Assembly (NCBI GenBank): GCA_902790015.1
Contig: CADAQF010000002.1
Span: forward strand, 1-64,000
DNA length: 64,000 nt
Direction of reading: 5' to 3'
Source: an uncultured Eubacteriales bacterium
GTDB taxonomy: Bacteria; Bacillota; Clostridia; Christensenellales; Aristaeellaceae
Shown: positions 2,684-41,770 of the stretch, piece by piece
Numbering within the stretch: the stretch's first letter is position 1
Layout of the letters: each line of letters opens with the position of its first letter
The notes under the pieces: model-generated
What the model was told of the DNA's origin: nothing
The model's input: the letters and a program-made list of their open reading frames with translations, nothing else
Databases searched by the model: none
Position numbers and translations under genes: made by a program

Positions 2684-3778
2684 ATACTTCTCAACTGACT
2701 CAATCAGGGTTGTGGATTCATTGAATGCGTCCCAGCGTATCTCTTCGATCCGAAGGTATCCGTCGATATCACTCATCTCCACCTTCGCGCCGAATTCTGT
2801 TTCCGCTTTCTGCTTACCACGCACGATCGGCCGCACCCACCATTGACTCAGGGATACGATTCGTTCCGCGATCCGGTGTGTCTTGCTGTCGTACATCTCT
2901 TTTTGCTGTTCACACAGCGTCATAAGAATCGGCAGTCGTTCCCGCAGCCATTTGCTTACATCCTTCATGCACTCCGGATGAGCTTGCATGATTTCGCTGA
3001 TTCTTGACAGGTTCCTGATCAGATATCCTAGCTGCTGGCGTATGCATTTTCTTGTCTTTCTGGCGTTCTTCTTGCGATCTTTCGAATAGCTGTTGTACTG
3101 CTTATGTGCCTTCTCACGATATGTTCTTGGTTTCTTGCCGTCGGTGTATCCCGCTGCATGAAGCTCATCTATGAGCCGCTCGCTGTTCTCCCGCGCTTCG
3201 TTCAACAGTGATGTGTCTGTGGGAAACCGGATGTTCTGCGGCGTACAGGTTGCATCCAGAATCAAGGTCCCTTCGTTCTTTTCTTCTGTTCCTTCTGATG
3301 AGCTCTCTTCTGCTGACCCAGCGTCTGTTCCAGTACCACTTCCGTCCTGATGATTGTCGTTCTCCTTCTCTTCCGCTTTCGGTCTGCCGATGATGATGTC
3401 GTTGACTTCGCTCAGCATCTCCGGCGTGATCCGCTGTCGAAACCGTGTCATCTGACAGGCATTGAATGGTTCTGCCGATGTATACTGCTGCAGTCCGATG
3501 AAGTATTGCAGATATGGGTTCATCGTGATGTGTTCTACCGTCGCCTCATCCGAAAACTGATACTTTTCCTTGATGATCAGCGATCCCAACGCCATCCTGA
3601 AGCTGCACGCCGGATTCCCTGTCCTGTCTGAAAACTGTTTCGCATATTTCTCTTCCAGTTTTCCCCATGGAATCATCTTTGACAGCTTCACCCATTGATT
3701 CTCTTTGTTCAGTTTGATCCCGCCGAACATCTCCGGTTCATCCAGCAGATTGATCTGATTCAGATGCCGTTTGTACAT
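2660..3778 (-). pseudogene. IS1182-type transposase, 3' end missing
   Basis: The ATG at 3778 (site GGAG about 10 bases upstream) opens 372 residues. The N-terminal part (about 1-130) is the usual DUF772-like region of IS5/IS1182 transposases (GKLEEKYAKQFSDRTGNPA, FRQRITPEMLSE). It is followed by an acidic Ser/Gly insert and then the first catalytic-Asp motif GTLILDATCTPQNIRFP near residue 175. Basic helices and the DIDGYLRIEEIRWDAFNEST block follow. Family members continue for about 100 more residues with the late catalytic Glu motif. Here the frame turns into unrelated sequence after SVEKY, near 2683, and ends at 2660. The enzyme therefore lacks its last catalytic residue and should be inactive. 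Confidence 0.8.
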
Positions 3779-3903
3779 TGCTGTTCCACTCCAAGTGCAA
3801 GGTTTTTCGTAAGTTCCGCCATTTCTCTTGCACTTATTATACCACTTTTCGACGATTTCTGCTGTTCTTACAATGTTTTTGGTCTGCTGCAGGAGACACT
3901 ATG
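2683..3903 (-). mobile_element. truncated IS1182-type insertion sequence
   Basis: The element remnant covers the transposase fragment and its 5' leader. Its left boundary is inferred at about 3903, where the ISAs1-type reading frame abruptly changes after KPIH to unrelated codons. The sequence there (minus strand) begins AGTGTCTCCTGCAGCAGACC, a candidate terminal sequence. The right end is lost, so inverted repeats and a target-site duplication cannot be paired. Confidence 0.55.
3793..3841 (-). promoter_or_regulatory. transposase promoter -10 and leader hairpin
   Basis: On the minus strand a consensus TATAAT (3841-3836) with only a weak -35 precedes the transposase. The transcript would immediately contain a 9-bp inverted repeat, AAGTGCAAG (3793-3801) and CTTGCACTT (3827-3835), upstream of the start codon. 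IS leaders often fold this way to block translation of read-through mRNA from outside; that role is an inference here. Confidence 0.5.
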
Positions 3904-4269
3904 TATTGGTTTTTGATCCTGATTCCTGCTGCCGCATAGCGTTTTTTCGTCTATACTGATGATTTCTCCTGCCGTTCTTTCATGTATCCCATTTACCCAT
4001 AGCGTAAAGCATTTCCTGAATTCCTCGGGTTCGATCCTTCCCCATATCCGCGCCAATGTGTCTGCTGACGGGATTCCATGTTCCAGCTTCAGTCCCATAT
4101 GCTCTCTGAGCCACTCTTCTTTTCCGTTGCGGAAATCTTCGATCTCATCCCATCCGTCACAATTTCCGATGACTGCTGCTATTGTCATTGCTACTATGTC
4201 GTACATCTCATGTCGTACGAATGCCTGTTTTCTTGTGTCTGTTAATCCTTTGAAGCTTTCTTTCATCAT
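3868..4269 (-). pseudogene. ISAs1-type transposase, N-terminal third only
   Basis: The start at 4269 (MMKESFKG) is preferred over 4308 because GAGGTGATC lies just upstream. The 133 residues carry the ISAs1/H-repeat N-terminal associated domain (MTIAAVIGNCDGWDEIEDF, GIPSADTLARIWGRI) and reach the first catalytic region IISIDEKTLCGS. Family members normally read SIDGKTLRGS, so this copy also has point changes there. After QKPIH the frame becomes foreign (SVSCSRPKTL) and stops. An IS1182-type element appears to have inserted here, and later deletion removed the rest. Confidence 0.75.
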
Positions 4270-4422: not shown

Positions 4423-4437
4423 GAATCCGCCGTAAAG

Positions 4438-4591
4438 AATGCCGGGAGAAACCGCGGTTTTTCCGGCGGGGCCGAAGGGGTAATACTCTCAGGCAAAAGG
4501 ACCGGTATTCGTTGGCGCTCCGGAGAGCTGATGGGCACCGAAGAAGCAATTCGCCCGCGCATGCAGGCGGAGAATCTTTCAGGTAACAGAC
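4438..4591 (+). ncRNA. tandem glycine riboswitch (gcvT element)
   Basis: The first aptamer shows the conserved GCCGGGAGAA start, GGCCGAAGGGG and CTCTCAGGCAAAAGGACCG blocks, then a CGGAGAG closing segment. A second, shorter aptamer follows at once, with GGGCACCGAAGAAGCAA and ATCTTTCAGGTAACAGACGGGGC. Two aptamers joined by a short linker are the classic glycine-sensing arrangement upstream of gcvT. The second aptamer's 3' end overlaps the expression-platform hairpin, so glycine binding should prevent termination and turn the operon on. Confidence 0.93.
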
Positions 4592-4627
4592 GGGGCACGT
4601 TTTTTAACGTGCTCCGTTTTTTCTTTT
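4592..4627 (+). terminator. riboswitch expression-platform terminator
   Basis: GGGGCACGTT (4592-4601) pairs with AACGTGCTCC (4606-4615) across a T loop and is followed by GTTTTTTCTTTTT. The 5' arm is shared with the end of aptamer 2, so the two folds are mutually exclusive. Confidence 0.88.
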
Positions 4628-24541: not shown

Positions 24542-25753
24542 ATGCCGGGACGCCGTTTATTTGCTTTTCTGCTGGCCCTGTCCCTGATCCTCGGCTGCGG
24601 GCCTTCCCTGAGCCAGGAAACGGCGGAGGAGCTTATCATCAGCCGGACGGAAATGCCCGGCCTCACGCCGGACAGCTTTGCCGCCTGGCCGTCCCTCGCT
24701 TACGCTTCAGGCCGGACGGACGAACGGCTGGACCGCATCAACCGCCTTATCTACGACGGAAGCGGGATGACATCCTACCTGTCCGTGCTGTTCATGCCCG
24801 GCGGAAGCGCCGGCTTTAAGGCGGACTATGAGGCGCTGATCGAAAACGGCCTTTACGCCGTCCGCCTCACGGCCGAGGGGAGGATGCCCCGGGGGCTGCC
24901 GGCGCAGCATCATTATCCCTTTCTGGTTTCCCTTGAGAATGGAAAGGCCCTGACCCCGGACGAGCTTTTTTCGGACCCTGAGTCGGCGCGGGAAAGTCTT
25001 CACGTGTATCTGCGGGACAGCGTTTTGCCGGAAGCTTCCGCCTTTATGGATTCAAGCGGCTTTTTTCCCATTCCGCTGGAGCGCTTTACCATATCCCACG
25101 ACACGGTGCTTTTCGATTATGAGCCGGAGCAGCTGACCTTCCTTTCCGGCGGGGCCGCGTCTGTCAGTTTTACCCTGGAGGAATTGGCGAACATTACCGG
25201 TGAAGGGGACCAACTGCGCCGGTTTGCCTCCATGCCTTTTTCCCCAGATGAAAAGACCTCCGAGCGGATTTTTTCGGATCTTTCCCAGGGGCTTTTTCCC
25301 GGCCTGTACCTGAGCCTGACGCAGCCCGCCGGGCTGAGTGTGCCGGTGTCTCAGGTCCTTTCATTCGGCCCGCGGGAACTGGATGACACGGTTTATCCGG
25401 AAGGGTACGCCGTTCAGACGGAAAACCCCTTTTTGCGGGACATCCTGGTGATCACGGACCGTGCAGGCGTTCAGACCGTCGGCTACCTGGCCCGGCGAGG
25501 GAACCTGTACGGCCTGGCGATCGGAAGGCTAAAGCGCGGGGACTGCCTGCAGGCGCTGGGCGAACCCGCCGTTTCCATTACCTTGGACGAAAAAGCGGCC
25601 CGGGAAAGGCTTTTGTCTCCCGGCGTGATGGACGTCTATGAAGTATCCCGGGCGGACGGGAGCATAGTTACGCTTTCCCTGATTTTTGCTGAAAACGAGA
25701 CCCTTACATCGGCACTGGCGCTTGCCGGCCGCCCTCAGGAGGATATACACTGA
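24542..25753 (+). CDS. predicted lipoprotein with DUF3298-like region, function unknown
   Basis: The ATG at 24542 follows AAAAGGGAGGG. The 403-residue product starts with a signal sequence and a lipobox-like LILGC (Cys20), so it is probably lipid-anchored. Residues about 80-215 (GMTSYLSVLFMPGG, FLVSLENGKALTPDELF, FTISHDTVLFDYEPEQL) resemble the DUF3298/RsiV-type fold seen in anti-sigma factors and PdaC-like proteins; this is from memory and not strong. The C-terminal half is not recognised. It ends one base before ftsK's ATG and shares its operon. Confidence 0.7.
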   Translation: MPGRRLFAFLLALSLILGCGPSLSQETAEELIISRTEMPGLTPDSFAAWPSLAYASGRTDERLDRINRLIYDGSGMTSYLSVLFMPGGSAGFKADYEALIENGLYAVRLTAEGRMPRGLPAQHHYPFLVSLENGKALTPDELFSDPESARESLHVYLRDSVLPEASAFMDSSGFFPIPLERFTISHDTVLFDYEPEQLTFLSGGAASVSFTLEELANITGEGDQLRRFASMPFSPDEKTSERIFSDLSQGLFPGLYLSLTQPAGLSVPVSQVLSFGPRELDDTVYPEGYAVQTENPFLRDILVITDRAGVQTVGYLARRGNLYGLAIGRLKRGDCLQALGEPAVSITLDEKAARERLLSPGVMDVYEVSRADGSIVTLSLIFAENETLTSALALAGRPQEDIH

Positions 25754-25754
25754 A

Positions 25755-28700
25755 ATGAGCGCAAACGTCAAACAAAAAAGAAAAGAGGCCGTCATCACCC
25801 GCACCACGGCCCCGGACGCGCTTTTCCGCTACGCGTTCGGCGCGCTGCTGCTGGCGCTGGGACTGGCGGCTTTCGCCGCCCTTTTCATGAGCGACGGCAG
25901 CGTTACGCTGCGCCTGCTCAAAGAGAAGGCCGGCGGCCTGGCCGGCAGCGTCACCTGGCCGCTGCCGTTTCTTCTGACGCTGAGCGGCGCCATGCTGATG
26001 CTGAGCTGCTATCATGTAGTCAACTGGCGCGGCGCGGCCTTTTTGTGGCTTTTATACCTGTGCGTGCTGGCGCTTATGACCATGCTGACCTATGTGAACG
26101 GGGTCGGCCCGCTGATGAGCTATATCCGCCAGTACAACATGGAGCAGCGCCCGGCGGAGAACCCGGAATCCTTTGTTTCCTATATCAAGCAGAGCTTTGA
26201 GTGGGGCTTGAACGGCCGCTATCCCTACTGCGGCGGCGGCGCGCTGGGGATGCTGCTGGCGTATCCTGCGTATCAGCTGTTCCATCACATCTTCGGCTCC
26301 GTTTTCCTGATCGCGCTGGGTATCGTAAGTCTGCTGATGGCGTTCAGGGTGCGCGTGGGCTCCATGATCCAAGGCACGTCCGACTGGATGGAAAAGCAGC
26401 GCTCCGCCCGGGCGGCCCGCTCTTCCGGGCAGGAAGCCGCTCCGGCCCGCCGTCAGCGTCCGCAGCAGCCGGCTGAGGACATGCCGATGGAAGCCGCTCC
26501 TGCAGGCGGCGCCGCCTATTCCTACGACACCTATGACCCTCAGGCGGAGCCTGTTCCGACGCCGCAGGACTACGCAGCCTTTGCCCAGACCGATCCCTCC
26601 TCCGGCGGCCGCTTTGTGCCGGTAGGGGACGGAAACACCCTGTACAAGGAGGACTTTGTTCTTCATCCCCGGGAAGCCTCGGCCCGCACGGGGGAAGCCA
26701 GCCTGGGTGCGGACGGTCCTTCGCCGTCCGAATCCTCCCAGCTGGACGACGGCAGTTATTCAGCCCGGTATGCCCCGGTAAAGCAGGAACGGGAAGAGGC
26801 GGCCCAGTTAGCCGCGGCGCAGCCTGTTTCCTCGAAACCCGAGCCGATGACCGAGGAGGACTTTATGCCTCCCGCCCGGCGCAGAAAGACCGGCCAAATC
26901 GATACTGCCCCGACGCCTGCCCAGGCTGAGCCGGCAGCTGCCGCGCAGCCCGAAGGCCCCGTTCCCAAGGCGACACCCGCCGCGCAGAAGACCGGAAAGG
27001 CAGCGGCTGAAAAGGAGTCTGATCGTCCTCAGCGGGAGGTTCCCGCCGCGAGGACGGCTTCCGTTCAGAAGCCCGCGCCCGAGGAGCCCGCTCCCTGGGA
27101 AAGCGATGCGGCCTCTTCCGAAGAGGACGGGCTTTCCGACTGGCAGATGGAGCTGGCCCGGGTATCGCAAAGCGTGTTTGGCGCGAAGCCTGCCAAAGTC
27201 AAGGAAAAAAAGCCCCAGGTGGTGGATGTCGATCCGGCCGTCCACATGACCGAATCCGTCCGTATCAAGCCCTCTTCCGAGCAAGTCAGGGAGGAACAGA
27301 AGCCTGAAGCCCGTCTGGACGATACCCCTGTGCAGCCGGTCAGGCCTAAGGAAAACCAGTTCTTCTCCCAGCCCTATAACCCGCCGCCCATCAGCTTCCT
27401 TTCGGAGCCCAAGGCGGTCAACCGGGACGAATCCACCCAGGAGGACGTAAAGCGCGCCCAGCAGATCGAACGGACGCTGTCCACTTTCAATATCCAGACG
27501 GAGGTCCGGGAGATCACCCATGGCCCCGCCATCACCCGCTTTGCCCTGAAGATCGCCGAGGGCATCAAGGTCAAGCAGGTGGTGGGGATGCTGGACAACA
27601 TCGCGCTTGAAATGGGGTCGGATCTTCTGCGCATTGAAGCGCCGATCCCCGGCACCTCCTATATCGGCATCGAGGTGCCCAACAGCAAGGTAAGCTCCGT
27701 GACCCTGCGCGAGGTGCTGGACAGCGATGCCATGCGCGCCAACCATAACCCCCTGGTCGTGGCCCTGGGCAAGGATATCGCGGGCAAGCCTATCCTGTGC
27801 GACCTTTCCCGCATGCCCCATCTGCTGATCGCCGGCGCCACCGGCAGCGGTAAATCAGTCTGCATCAACTCCATCGTCTGCAGCCTTCTGTACCGGGCTT
27901 CTCCGGCGGACGTAAGGCTGATCATGGTCGACCCCAAGCAGGTGGAACTGCAGGTGTACAACGGCATCCCGCATCTGCTGATCCCCGTGATCAGCGACCC
28001 GAAGAAGGCCTCCACGGCGCTCAACTGGGTGGTCAACGAAATGTTTGAGCGCTACGGCAAATTCAGCGCCATGGGTGTGCGCAACCTGGAGGGCTTCAAC
28101 AAAAAGTGCGCCAAAGATAAGAAGCTGCCCAACATCGTGGTCATCATAGACGAAATGGCAGACCTGATGGAGGTCTGCCGCAAGGACGTGGAGGAGAGCG
28201 TCCGCCGCCTGGCCGCGCTGGCCCGCGCCGCCGGCATCTATATGGTGCTGGCCACCCAGCGTCCTTCTGTGGACGTCATCACCGGCGTTATCAAGAATAA
28301 TATCCCCAGCCGCATCGCCTTCACCGTGTCCAGCGGCGTGGACAGCCGCACCATCATTGATGTAAACGGCGCGGAAAAGCTTCTGGGCAAGGGCGATATG
28401 CTCTATCAGCCCACCGGCGCTTCAAAGCCCACCCGTGTGCAGGGCTGCTTCGTATCGGACGAGGAGGTCGCGATGATCACGGACAATATCGTGGCCCGCT
28501 ACTCCGCCGATTACAATATGGACATTCAGAGCCAGATGGATCAGTCCCAGGACAGCGGCGGGAAAACCGCCCAGGACGAGCCGGCCGCCGAGCCTCCGGA
28601 GGGAGAATTCAACGACCTGCTGAATACCGCCATCCGCATGGCCGTGGAAGACGGCCAGACCTCCATCAGCATGCTGCAGCGCAGGCTGCGCGTGGGCTAC

Positions 28701-28847
28701 GCCCGCGCCGGCCGGCTGGTGGACGAGATGACCAAAAAGGGGATCATTTCCGAGGCCGAGGGCAGCAAGCCCCGCAAGGTGCTGATCACGCGGGAGCAGT
28801 TCCTTGAATGGATGCGTGAAAACGGGGAGGGCTCACGCATGGAGTGA
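25755..28847 (+). CDS. ftsK: DNA translocase FtsK/SpoIIIE
   Basis: FtsK pumps chromosomal DNA through the closing septum or into the spore. The start at 25755 (MSANVKQKRKEA) is chosen from AGGAGG at 25736-25742. The 1030 residues comprise four membrane helices in about 20-185, a long Pro/Ala/Glu-rich linker (about 200-560), the RecA-like motor with Walker A GATGSGKSV (about 694-702) and Walker B NIVVIIDEMADLM, and a C-terminal gamma winged-helix (LLNTAIRMAVEDGQTSISMLQRRL). The VLATQRPSVDVITG block is diagnostic. FtsK and SpoIIIE cannot be separated from sequence alone; with no other sporulation gene visible, FtsK is the safer name. Confidence 0.95.
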   Translation: MSANVKQKRKEAVITRTTAPDALFRYAFGALLLALGLAAFAALFMSDGSVTLRLLKEKAGGLAGSVTWPLPFLLTLSGAMLMLSCYHVVNWRGAAFLWLLYLCVLALMTMLTYVNGVGPLMSYIRQYNMEQRPAENPESFVSYIKQSFEWGLNGRYPYCGGGALGMLLAYPAYQLFHHIFGSVFLIALGIVSLLMAFRVRVGSMIQGTSDWMEKQRSARAARSSGQEAAPARRQRPQQPAEDMPMEAAPAGGAAYSYDTYDPQAEPVPTPQDYAAFAQTDPSSGGRFVPVGDGNTLYKEDFVLHPREASARTGEASLGADGPSPSESSQLDDGSYSARYAPVKQEREEAAQLAAAQPVSSKPEPMTEEDFMPPARRRKTGQIDTAPTPAQAEPAAAAQPEGPVPKATPAAQKTGKAAAEKESDRPQREVPAARTASVQKPAPEEPAPWESDAASSEEDGLSDWQMELARVSQSVFGAKPAKVKEKKPQVVDVDPAVHMTESVRIKPSSEQVREEQKPEARLDDTPVQPVRPKENQFFSQPYNPPPISFLSEPKAVNRDESTQEDVKRAQQIERTLSTFNIQTEVREITHGPAITRFALKIAEGIKVKQVVGMLDNIALEMGSDLLRIEAPIPGTSYIGIEVPNSKVSSVTLREVLDSDAMRANHNPLVVALGKDIAGKPILCDLSRMPHLLIAGATGSGKSVCINSIVCSLLYRASPADVRLIMVDPKQVELQVYNGIPHLLIPVISDPKKASTALNWVVNEMFERYGKFSAMGVRNLEGFNKKCAKDKKLPNIVVIIDEMADLMEVCRKDVEESVRRLAALARAAGIYMVLATQRPSVDVITGVIKNNIPSRIAFTVSSGVDSRTIIDVNGAEKLLGKGDMLYQPTGASKPTRVQGCFVSDEEVAMITDNIVARYSADYNMDIQSQMDQSQDSGGKTAQDEPAAEPPEGEFNDLLNTAIRMAVEDGQTSISMLQRRLRVGYARAGRLVDEMTKKGIISEAEGSKPRKVLITREQFLEWMRENGEGSRME

Positions 28848-28871
28848 GCGACTGGGAAGGGGACTGACAGC

Positions 28872-28930
28872 CAGGGCCTGCCGGCCCGTTCTTCGCTGAA
28901 AATGGTCCACCGGACCATTTTCCGGGCGCT
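28872..28930. repeat. covarying hairpin element, copy 1
   Basis: A GGGCC-TGCC-GGCCC mini-hairpin is followed by an 11-bp perfect stem, GAAAATGGTCC (28898-28908) and GGACCATTTTC (28912-28922), with a 3-base ACC loop, then CGGGC. Confidence 0.75.
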
Positions 28931-28990
28931 CAGAACCCCCTGCGGCTTTTCCTGCTTTATTCCGAAGTAACCCACGGTTCGCTATGGCGG

Positions 28991-29013
28991 TTTCAGCGTC
29001 TCTGACGCTGAAA
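28991..29013. repeat. isolated perfect hairpin
   Basis: TTTCAGCGTC (28991-29000) pairs with GACGCTGAAA (29004-29013) across loop TCT. No T-run follows, so it is not a standard terminator. Confidence 0.6.
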
Positions 29014-29127
29014 ATACCATGCTCACCGGGACTTCACCGGCCTTTATCTCGCCCACTGGGCGCGGCCGCTTCCGTCCCCCGGGCGGAAAAGCCGTAAGGA
29101 CCTGTTTTCCTGACGGAAAACCCCATC

Positions 29128-29185
29128 CAGGGCCTGCCGGCCCGTTCGTCGGTGAAAACGGTCCACCGGACCGTTTTCCGGGCCC
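29128..29185. repeat. covarying hairpin element, copy 2
   Basis: It has the same layout as copy 1. The 11-bp stem is GAAAACGGTCC (29154-29164) with GGACCGTTTTC (29168-29178), loop ACC, and GGGCCTGCCGGCCC upstream. The T-A pair of copy 1 is replaced by C-G on both arms. Confidence 0.75.
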
Positions 29186-29267
29186 TCCTCACCCCGACGG
29201 CAAAGCCGCCGGGATACGATTACACCCTCCTCACCCCGACGGCAAAGCCGCCGGGATACGATTACAC
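29184..29267. repeat. two tandem 42-bp direct repeats
   Basis: Two identical 42-bp units, 29184-29225 and 29226-29267, each contain GACGGCAAAGCCGCCGGG. The first copy overlaps the end of hairpin element 2. Confidence 0.85.
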
Positions 29268-29323
29268 GCGAGGGTGTGCCCCCTCGCGCTCCCCTCGTGT
29301 TTTTCACTCACTTTGTCCGCTTC

Positions 29324-29382
29324 CAGGGCCTGCCGGCCCGTTCGTCGGTGAAAACAGGCCACTGGCCTGTTTTCCGGGCCCT
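29324..29382. repeat. covarying hairpin element, copy 3
   Basis: The stem is GAAAACAGGCC (29350-29360) with GGCCTGTTTTC (29364-29374), loop ACT, again preceded by GGGCCTGCCGGCCC. Changes from copy 2 are matched on both arms. Confidence 0.75.
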
Positions 29383-29394
29383 CCTCACCTCTTC

Positions 29395-29715
29395 GGGTGC
29401 CTTCGGCATCCGGCGGATGAACCGCCGGACTTTCATTTGAATCGGACTCCGTTCGTTCACCGGCTCCGCTGCATACTGTCCACAGGATGCATTCAATGCA
29501 AATTGTCCTCGGATGCCTGCGGCATCCGACGGTCGAACTGCCGGACTTTCTTTGAATCGGACTCAGTTCGTTCACCGGCTCCGCTGCAAACTACTCACTG
29601 GATGCACTCGATGCATATTGTCCGCGGATGCCTGAGATATCCGCGGTCGAATTGCCGGAATATCTTTGAATCGGACTTCGAAAGGGACTTCGTTCGTTCA
29701 CGAGTTCCGCTTTTA
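29395..29715. repeat. three tandem copies of a ~115-bp unit, third truncated
   Basis: Units start near 29395, 29511 and 29626 with GGATGCCTG-like sequence. They share TTTGAATCGGACT, GTTCGTTCACCGGCTCCGCTGC and a GGATGCA..GATGCA segment. The third copy diverges and ends near 29715. Confidence 0.7.
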
Positions 29716-29801
29716 TTGTTCTCAGTTTTATCCTTTGGAATTGTACTTATCGATGTTTTTGCAATTCTTGTTTATGCCGTGGAGCTAATCCTATTTTGTT
29801 C

Positions 29802-29830: not shown

Positions 29831-29877
29831 AGAGTCAGCATCAATCGAATTCAATGGAGGGAAAGGAGCGCTTGCGG

Positions 29878-41612: not shown

Positions 41613-41644
41613 TGTGTTGTTTCACCTGTTTTCCGGCGTAAATT

Positions 41645-41770
41645 AAAAGAGTCACTGCGCTTCAGGCACAGAGACTCATTACATCACACTCATCCCTGTT
41701 CCTCGGCGGGCAATTTTAAGCGCTTATAAAAGCGCGCCAGCTGTCTTCGGCACAGACTCTTCCGAGCCGA
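41645..41770 (-). ncRNA. ribosomal protein L10 leader
   Basis: On the minus strand the leader contains the conserved GCCGAAGACAGCTGG and, after a short stem region, GCTTAAAATTGCCCGCCGAGG, the two halves of the L10 binding kink-turn. Downstream, GAGTCTCTGTGC/GCGCAGTGACTC followed by TTTTAATTT (41677-41645) can act as an attenuator terminator. Confidence 0.88.

Follow-up and report, generated by a model that had tools for sequence, protein, structure and literature searches.

Dispersed double-hairpin repeats with maintained pairing, found downstream of ftsK in an uncultured Eubacteriales bacterium

Three hairpin repeats behind ftsK

What are the hairpins that follow ftsK in this uncultured Eubacteriales genome, and how did they come to be there? 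Within the 64,000-nucleotide stretch analyzed here ("the window"), a preliminary description had noted three copies of a mini-hairpin GGGCC-TGCC-GGCCC followed by a GAAAA stem, with stems that differ and stay paired, and had read them as a functional RNA or cruciform, such as REP-like elements or binding sites of a RAYT transposase. All three copies were found: GGGCCTGCCGGCCC stands at 28874, 29130, and 29326, in 3 of 3 cases followed by GAAAA-stem-3 nt-stem'-TTTTC, and the stems, which differ (AATGGTCC, AACGGTCC, and AACAGGCC), pair without a mismatch in every copy, around loops ACC, ACC, and ACT. The GAAAA stem is real, its true start lying one base earlier than described and its length being 11 bp (GAAAAnnnnCC), and the preliminary description had overlooked an outer stem, which in copy 1 reads GTTCT/AGAAC. 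We refer to the family of dispersed double-hairpin repeats that includes these copies as "E".

The three full-length units lie on the + strand between ftsK, whose stop is at 28847, and the ORF predicted as the following gene, which starts at 29854. Copy 1 (28871–28936; 95.5 bits with the covariance model R1 introduced below), of the GTTCT/AGAAC subtype, is composed of a mini-hairpin (28874–28878/28883–28887), an outer stem (28888–28892/28932–28936 and 28895–28896/28928–28929), an inner stem (28898–28908/28912–28922, loop ACC), and a conserved CGGGC (28923–28927), all on the + strand. Copy 2 (29127–29192, +; inner stem 29154–29164/29168–29178) belongs to the TCGG/CCTC subtype, the commonest in its own genome, and is identical at five other genome sites; copy 3 (29323–29388, +) has its inner stem at 29350–29360/29364–29374, with loop ACT. 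Around them extends a probable host repeat, a MITE-like chain of hairpins of the kind called type 3 below (28830–29782, +), whose ends were placed by their likeness to those of the other type-3 repeats. It comprises a left terminal hairpin (GGCTCACGCA..GTGAGC, 28830–28849, +), a tandemly duplicated 42-bp unit holding a GACGGC-AAA-GCCGCC hairpin (29183–29266, +), and a right part with CGGATGAACCGCCGG hairpins and TTTGAATCGGACT (29408–29667, +), itself partially duplicated (29436–29528 and 29551–29643). The right end is degenerate, near 29764–29782, and no target duplication was found around this host.

The upstream ftsK-like ORF (25686–28847, +) has nucleotide orthologues in six same-genus genomes. 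Its last codons and stop (28830–28847) are formed by the left end of the type-3 island and the same-genus orthologues end differently, i.e., the host end appears to supply the ftsK stop here, with repeats reshaping gene ends. An E-bearing island also follows ftsK in one same-genus genome (G007), and in three others (G001, G003, and G005) the gene after ftsK begins within a few tens of bases; the position downstream of ftsK is incidental for E. Elsewhere in the window, Rfam identified a tandem glycine riboswitch (4433–4599, +) and a ribosomal L10 leader (41636–41768, −).

The same plan was seen in the genome itself and nine relatives: CCA, a mini-hairpin GGGCC-TNCC-GGCCC, and a long hairpin. 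The outer stem of the latter starts with GTT and ends with AAC (or GC...GC), continues through a symmetric TC/TC mismatch to two further pairs, and leads to an internal loop, T opposite CGGGC, and then to an inner stem of 11 bp (GAAAAnnnnCC/GGnnnnTTTTC) closed by a 3-base loop, ACC, ACT, or ACA. E measures ~62–67 bp, and a short form 43–47 bp. Hairpin folding of the window copies is far beyond chance, with z from −3.7 to −4.8 as + strand DNA and from −3.9 to −5.1 as RNA.

The claim that pairing is kept while the stem sequence drifts was borne out in a larger, ungapped alignment of 55 distinct copies and 23 pairs. Standard pairs occupied 93.4% of pair cells, and double changes occurred at 17 of the 23 pairs (10.8 expected from shuffles) and in 160 cells (41 in shuffles); the covariation score was 0.380 compared to 0.123 in shuffles, and the signal was lost when pairing partners were slid. 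The covariation is thus real. Compensated outer stems include GTTCT/AGAAC, GTTGC/GCAAC, GTTAT/ATAAC, GTCCT/AGGAC, GCTCT/AGAGC, and GCTGT/ACAGC, and compensation is rare in the mini-hairpin (CG to UA at two pairs). The commonest own-genome subtype (GTTCG-TCGG ... CCTC-CTCAC) has lost two outer pairs (columns 20–64 and 21–63); an alternative pairing, AGGGCC/GGGCCCT, is predicted for it, and the bases concerned hardly vary.

Copy number, host islands, and a second phylum

E is dispersed well beyond the three copies first described, and with the covariation above, both outcomes that the preliminary description had named as refuting it (no more copies, no covariation) are contradicted. A BLAST search with one copy against its own genome returned 85 alignments, including six in which all 67 bp were identical, and 87 of 87 scored own-genome candidates were matched by R1, a covariance model trained on Christensenellales E copies that scores the short form poorly. 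Copies were taken from the stretches around matches in the genomes searched. R1 matches numbered at least 87 in the own genome (G000, from a gut-type Christensenellales bacterium) and at least 87 in G004, 82 in G002, 28 in G017, 16 in G022, 10 in G005, 8 in G007, and 2–4 in three other genomes, while 50 of 60 genomes were E-free by R1. The location is intergenic: 0 of 92 copies overlapped predicted genes, as called by a simple codon-usage script and not by curated annotation. An exact 20-mer was shared with the relatives Christensenella sp. UBA4379 and uncultured Clostridia. Exact 20-mer matches in Streptomyces, Vicinamibacterales, and Syntrophobacteria had unconvincing second hairpins and were treated as chance. 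A phage search gave no match to E; a 41.5-kb contig classed as viral (IMGVR_UViG_3300031760_000174, L245) holds two copies. No description of the family was found in the open-licence literature.

E copies sit in MITE-like islands of other hairpins, up to ~1000 bp long, either within larger inverted-repeat elements, in tandem with a 67-bp period, or nested in the tip of another E hairpin (L058, L069, L203, and L240; triple in L234). Islands of types 1, 2, and 3 start with GTAACTGTTCAG, GTTACTATT, and GGGCTCACGCATG, respectively, and the opposite end of each type carries its inverted counterpart. Target duplications of 8 bp accompany type 1 and 2 hosts (TGTACATC/TGTACATC at L067, TCCGTTTT/TCCGTTTT at L053, and nGGAAAAT at L064) and are weaker for type 3. 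Host types 1–3 may possibly belong together in a structured mobile element family that is much larger and marked by 8-bp target duplications. Read by eye rather than quantified, they display the same hairpin order with different stems (L041–L074 and L193–L244; e.g., L063, L072, and L228). IS66 was considered as the mover of type-1 hosts because of their GTAA ends and 8-bp duplications, and was rejected, with no PF03050 gene in the own genome. In the L051 island (3329–4169, minus strand), a T-box-like leader (GGGTGGTACCGCGG), for which Rfam gave no confirmation at its gathering threshold, comes just after the E-bearing repeat.

Since each host junction usually has its own E subtype, much of the copying of E was done by its hosts, and independent E insertions in the own genome are accordingly few, amounting to about 8 types of host junction and the nested cases. 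At these junctions, E replaces 0–6 target bases, and no target duplication was seen. Flanks include several unrelated ones, and some hosts have no E at a given site (L228, L195, and L226), the type-3 host being seen both with E and without it (L228). Among host types 1–3, 79 copies follow the host orientation and 5 are opposite, counts that include copies by descent; the five all represent one subtype belonging to another host, and copies in type-H hosts are opposite. In G005, all 9 copies share one common context.

A search of plasmids matched Rhodobacter, and the same architecture recurs in Rhodobacterales. The long form there, CCGGGGCTCCGCCCGTTC-stem-TGAAA...TTTCC-NNGAC-stem'-TCACCC, was found in Rhodobacter, Cereibacter, Sagittula, Rhodovulum, and Ruegeria, as well as in a marine Bacillus velezensis plasmid whose record could be a contaminant. 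Its best R1 score corresponds to an E-value of 4e-11 in 63 kb, or roughly 5e-6 when scaled to the whole plasmid collection by our own arithmetic on rough E-values. Twelve plasmid and alphaproteobacterial long-form copies covary independently, with 98.1% of cells paired, double changes at 10 of 18 pairs, and a covariation score of 0.424 compared to 0.133 in shuffles. An R1 survey of 96 alphaproteobacterial genomes gave matches in 3; E thus extends to distant marine and soil bacteria. Three Ruegeria plasmids (L253, L254, and L255) have an intergenic copy at one and the same position between gcvH and gcvP, which is why this insertion may have been kept through speciation.

The short form, GTTCGTCGGGAAAACAGTCC-CCC-GGACTGTTTTCTGATCCTCCTCACT, lacks the mini-hairpin and occurs in 35 plasmid records, nearly all alphaproteobacterial. 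It breaks transposase regions resembling IS5 (L279, L249, and L281), IS3 (L278, L283, and L285), and IS481 (L272), and intact homologues of the interrupted sites are abundant in plasmids. Three filled sites were aligned with intact ones (IS5: L279 with L288/L289 and L281 with L290; IS3: L278 with L291), yielding net inserts of 43, 47, and 43 bp; a few bases of the target had gone, and none were duplicated. About 8 of the transposase insertion sites are antisense and one (L276) is sense, a bias that is suggestive and not significant. Rhodobacter sp. CZR27 (NZ_CP023549.1, L257) has six IS5 copies, all with the same E and all identical to one another over a 748-bp stretch. Their transposase frame contains at least two hairpin inserts, yet the element multiplied. 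These six E-bearing copies led us to consider that E in transposase ORFs is bypassed by the ribosome or spliced out; given the insert lengths and possible trans-mobilization, this stands as one candidate explanation. Taken together, the two phyla and the nesting suggest that E travels with other mobile elements.

What might move E

To our knowledge, bacterial palindromic repeats have been explained where a RAYT is present, and families without a RAYT have no known mover. E offers a defined recognition structure, empty sites, and many copies in Y1-free genomes, which makes the question of what moves orphan palindromes directly testable. We give about even credence to the reading that E is a non-autonomous mobile palindrome that a putative enzyme acting in trans recognizes in folded, single-stranded form and moves. 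What is conserved would then be the folded single-stranded shape and the unpaired signals GTTC, T/CGGGC, ACC-type loop, and TCACC, the stem sequences drifting with compensation. An E strand would fold during replication or repair, and the enzyme, supplied in trans, would recognize the bulged hairpin and join E into other DNA where that is single-stranded, for instance at loops and junctions in MITEs rich in hairpins, at the tip of an E hairpin, or in transposase genes. A few target bases would be lost in the process and none duplicated, and host MITEs would then carry E along. The strand-specific unpaired signals beside a bulged hairpin, the lack of target duplication, and the insertion at loops and junctions seem to fit such an enzyme. 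Copy number, structure and covariation, intergenic location, nesting, occurrence in two phyla, and three empty sites are directly observed; that the intermediate is single-stranded, that the enzyme acts in trans, and that E is active at present are inferred. Our confidence is very high that E is a real dispersed element with conserved structure, moderate that it moves on its own, and lower than moderate that a specific enzyme acts on its folded strand. Several points weigh against mobility of E: the loss of target bases also fits recombination or template switching, orientation has exceptions (opposite in type-H copies, sense at L276), much of the own-genome copying is by hosts, and the commonest subtype has lost two outer-stem pairs and has an alternative predicted fold. 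A broader version, in which the Christensenellales and Alphaproteobacteria copies constitute one cross-phylum family of minimal, Y1-free single-strand hairpin transposons, moved by an unknown class of hairpin-processing enzyme with strand-specific targeting of mobile elements, strikes us as rather improbable.

The strongest alternative to an enzyme acting on the folded strand is that E is a mere MITE passenger spreading by recombination: an immobile hairpin domain of larger MITEs, dispersed by their transposition and by exchanges between palindromes of the kind seen in mosaic BIMEs (recombination, gene conversion, and template switching). The tendency of host junctions toward their own subtype, the hosts with inverted-repeat ends and 8-bp target duplications (L067 and L053), and the single context in G005 can all be explained in this way. 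However, the short form occurs by itself in ORFs of IS5, IS3, and IS481, where the empty sites are clean, E is found nested in the tip of its own hairpin, and the copy between gcvH and gcvP is intergenic, and we regard a passenger role as possible though on the unlikely side.

The compensation itself might also stem from mutation rather than selection, if template switching between arms (quasi-palindrome correction) keeps the stems perfect. Inner stems are paired in 99.0% of cells among the 55 distinct copies, differ by blocks of bases, and display no strand bias, as such a process would predict. Against it, the same stem positions are nearly fixed (AA and CC ends) or variable (middle) in both Bacillota and Alphaproteobacteria, and the TC/TC mismatch and the T/CGGGC loop stay uncorrected in most copies. 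We consider this origin of the pairing unlikely, if a real possibility.

The dedicated RAYT transposase envisaged at the outset is not supported. No Y1_Tnp (PF01797) gene was detected in the own genome, and E lay beside 0 of 20 Y1_Tnp loci. Of 10 E-bearing genomes, 7 had no Y1_Tnp, among them G022, which is 99% complete; of 50 E-free genomes, 11 had it. A REP moved by a RAYT (Y1 HUH) transposase that is missing from the assembly or has since been lost would account for the REP-like bulged hairpin with strand-specific signals; the own genome is 92% complete with contigs broken by repeats, and E-rich G004 has three Y1 genes. Given the Y1-free genomes and the lack of a conserved GTAG tag, we deem this very unlikely.

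A functional RNA or bidirectional transcription terminator, as the A-tract, GC stem, T-tract, and strong RNA fold might suggest, is equally hard to credit. A strand-specific RNA is expected to tolerate G-U pairs and not A-C, whereas inner-stem mismatches in 115 distinct copies were near equal (16 G-U and 13 A-C), so neither strand is preferred and a strand-specific RNA is not indicated. An Rfam search gave no match to E, and E was not flagged as a terminator (a GC hairpin close to a gene 3' end, with a tail containing ≥5 T). The E sites examined had no preferred gene ends, gene context, or orientation (22 codirectional, 5 convergent, and 4 divergent, close to background).

Relation to known palindromic repeats

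The REP-like character proposed in the preliminary description survives in part: E is a dispersed hairpin family with maintained pairing and REP-like behavior, but the tag that defines REPs, GTAG or CGTC, is missing or varies among copies. Like the REP/REPIN repeats of the GTAG superfamily with their RAYT (TnpA-REP), E forms high-copy, mainly intergenic palindromes that are tandem or clustered, with a bulged hairpin; it differs in having two hairpins, mostly no Y1 transposase, and copies inside transposase genes and MITEs, and no GTAG was found at either palindrome end in the 55 aligned copies. Integron attC hairpins read 5' RYYYAAC ... GTTRRRY 3', while E has the reverse order, GTTNN ... NNAAC, and does not follow the attC rule. 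CGTC-tagged repeats, which have a CGTC end, an 8–9 bp stem starting with A-T pairs, a loop of 4–5, and a CCA tail, lack a known dedicated transposase and are common in Alphaproteobacteria; the text of that survey names neither Firmicutes nor Clostridia (PMC3733652). One E subtype and the short form likewise have CGTC before the stem, but CGTC is missing in subtypes TTCGC, GGTAC, GGCAC, and GCAAC, and E has a stem of 11 bp and a loop of 3.

Rickettsia palindromic elements are, like E, small palindromes inserted in genes in Alphaproteobacteria; they are ~150 bp long and in-frame in metabolic genes (PMC10969869), whereas intragenic E copies break transposase frames. Bacterial MITEs share with E the nature of non-autonomous intergenic repeats. 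Inverted-repeat ends with target duplication are found in host types 1 and 2, themselves MITE-like; E itself duplicates no target and, apart from its own hairpin, lacks inverted ends of the transposase type. By anatomy and behavior, E also resembles yeast mitochondrial GC clusters, which have short repeats, AG or ACT, on their flanks (PMC4478555), and the mitochondrial double-hairpin elements cited in PMC5910586, a class marked by a double hairpin, sporadic insertions, and no encoded enzyme: these too are tiny palindromes that proliferate, merge, and shuffle with no known enzyme. We file E as a family of palindromic repeats that form double hairpins, lack a RAYT, and occur in two phyla.
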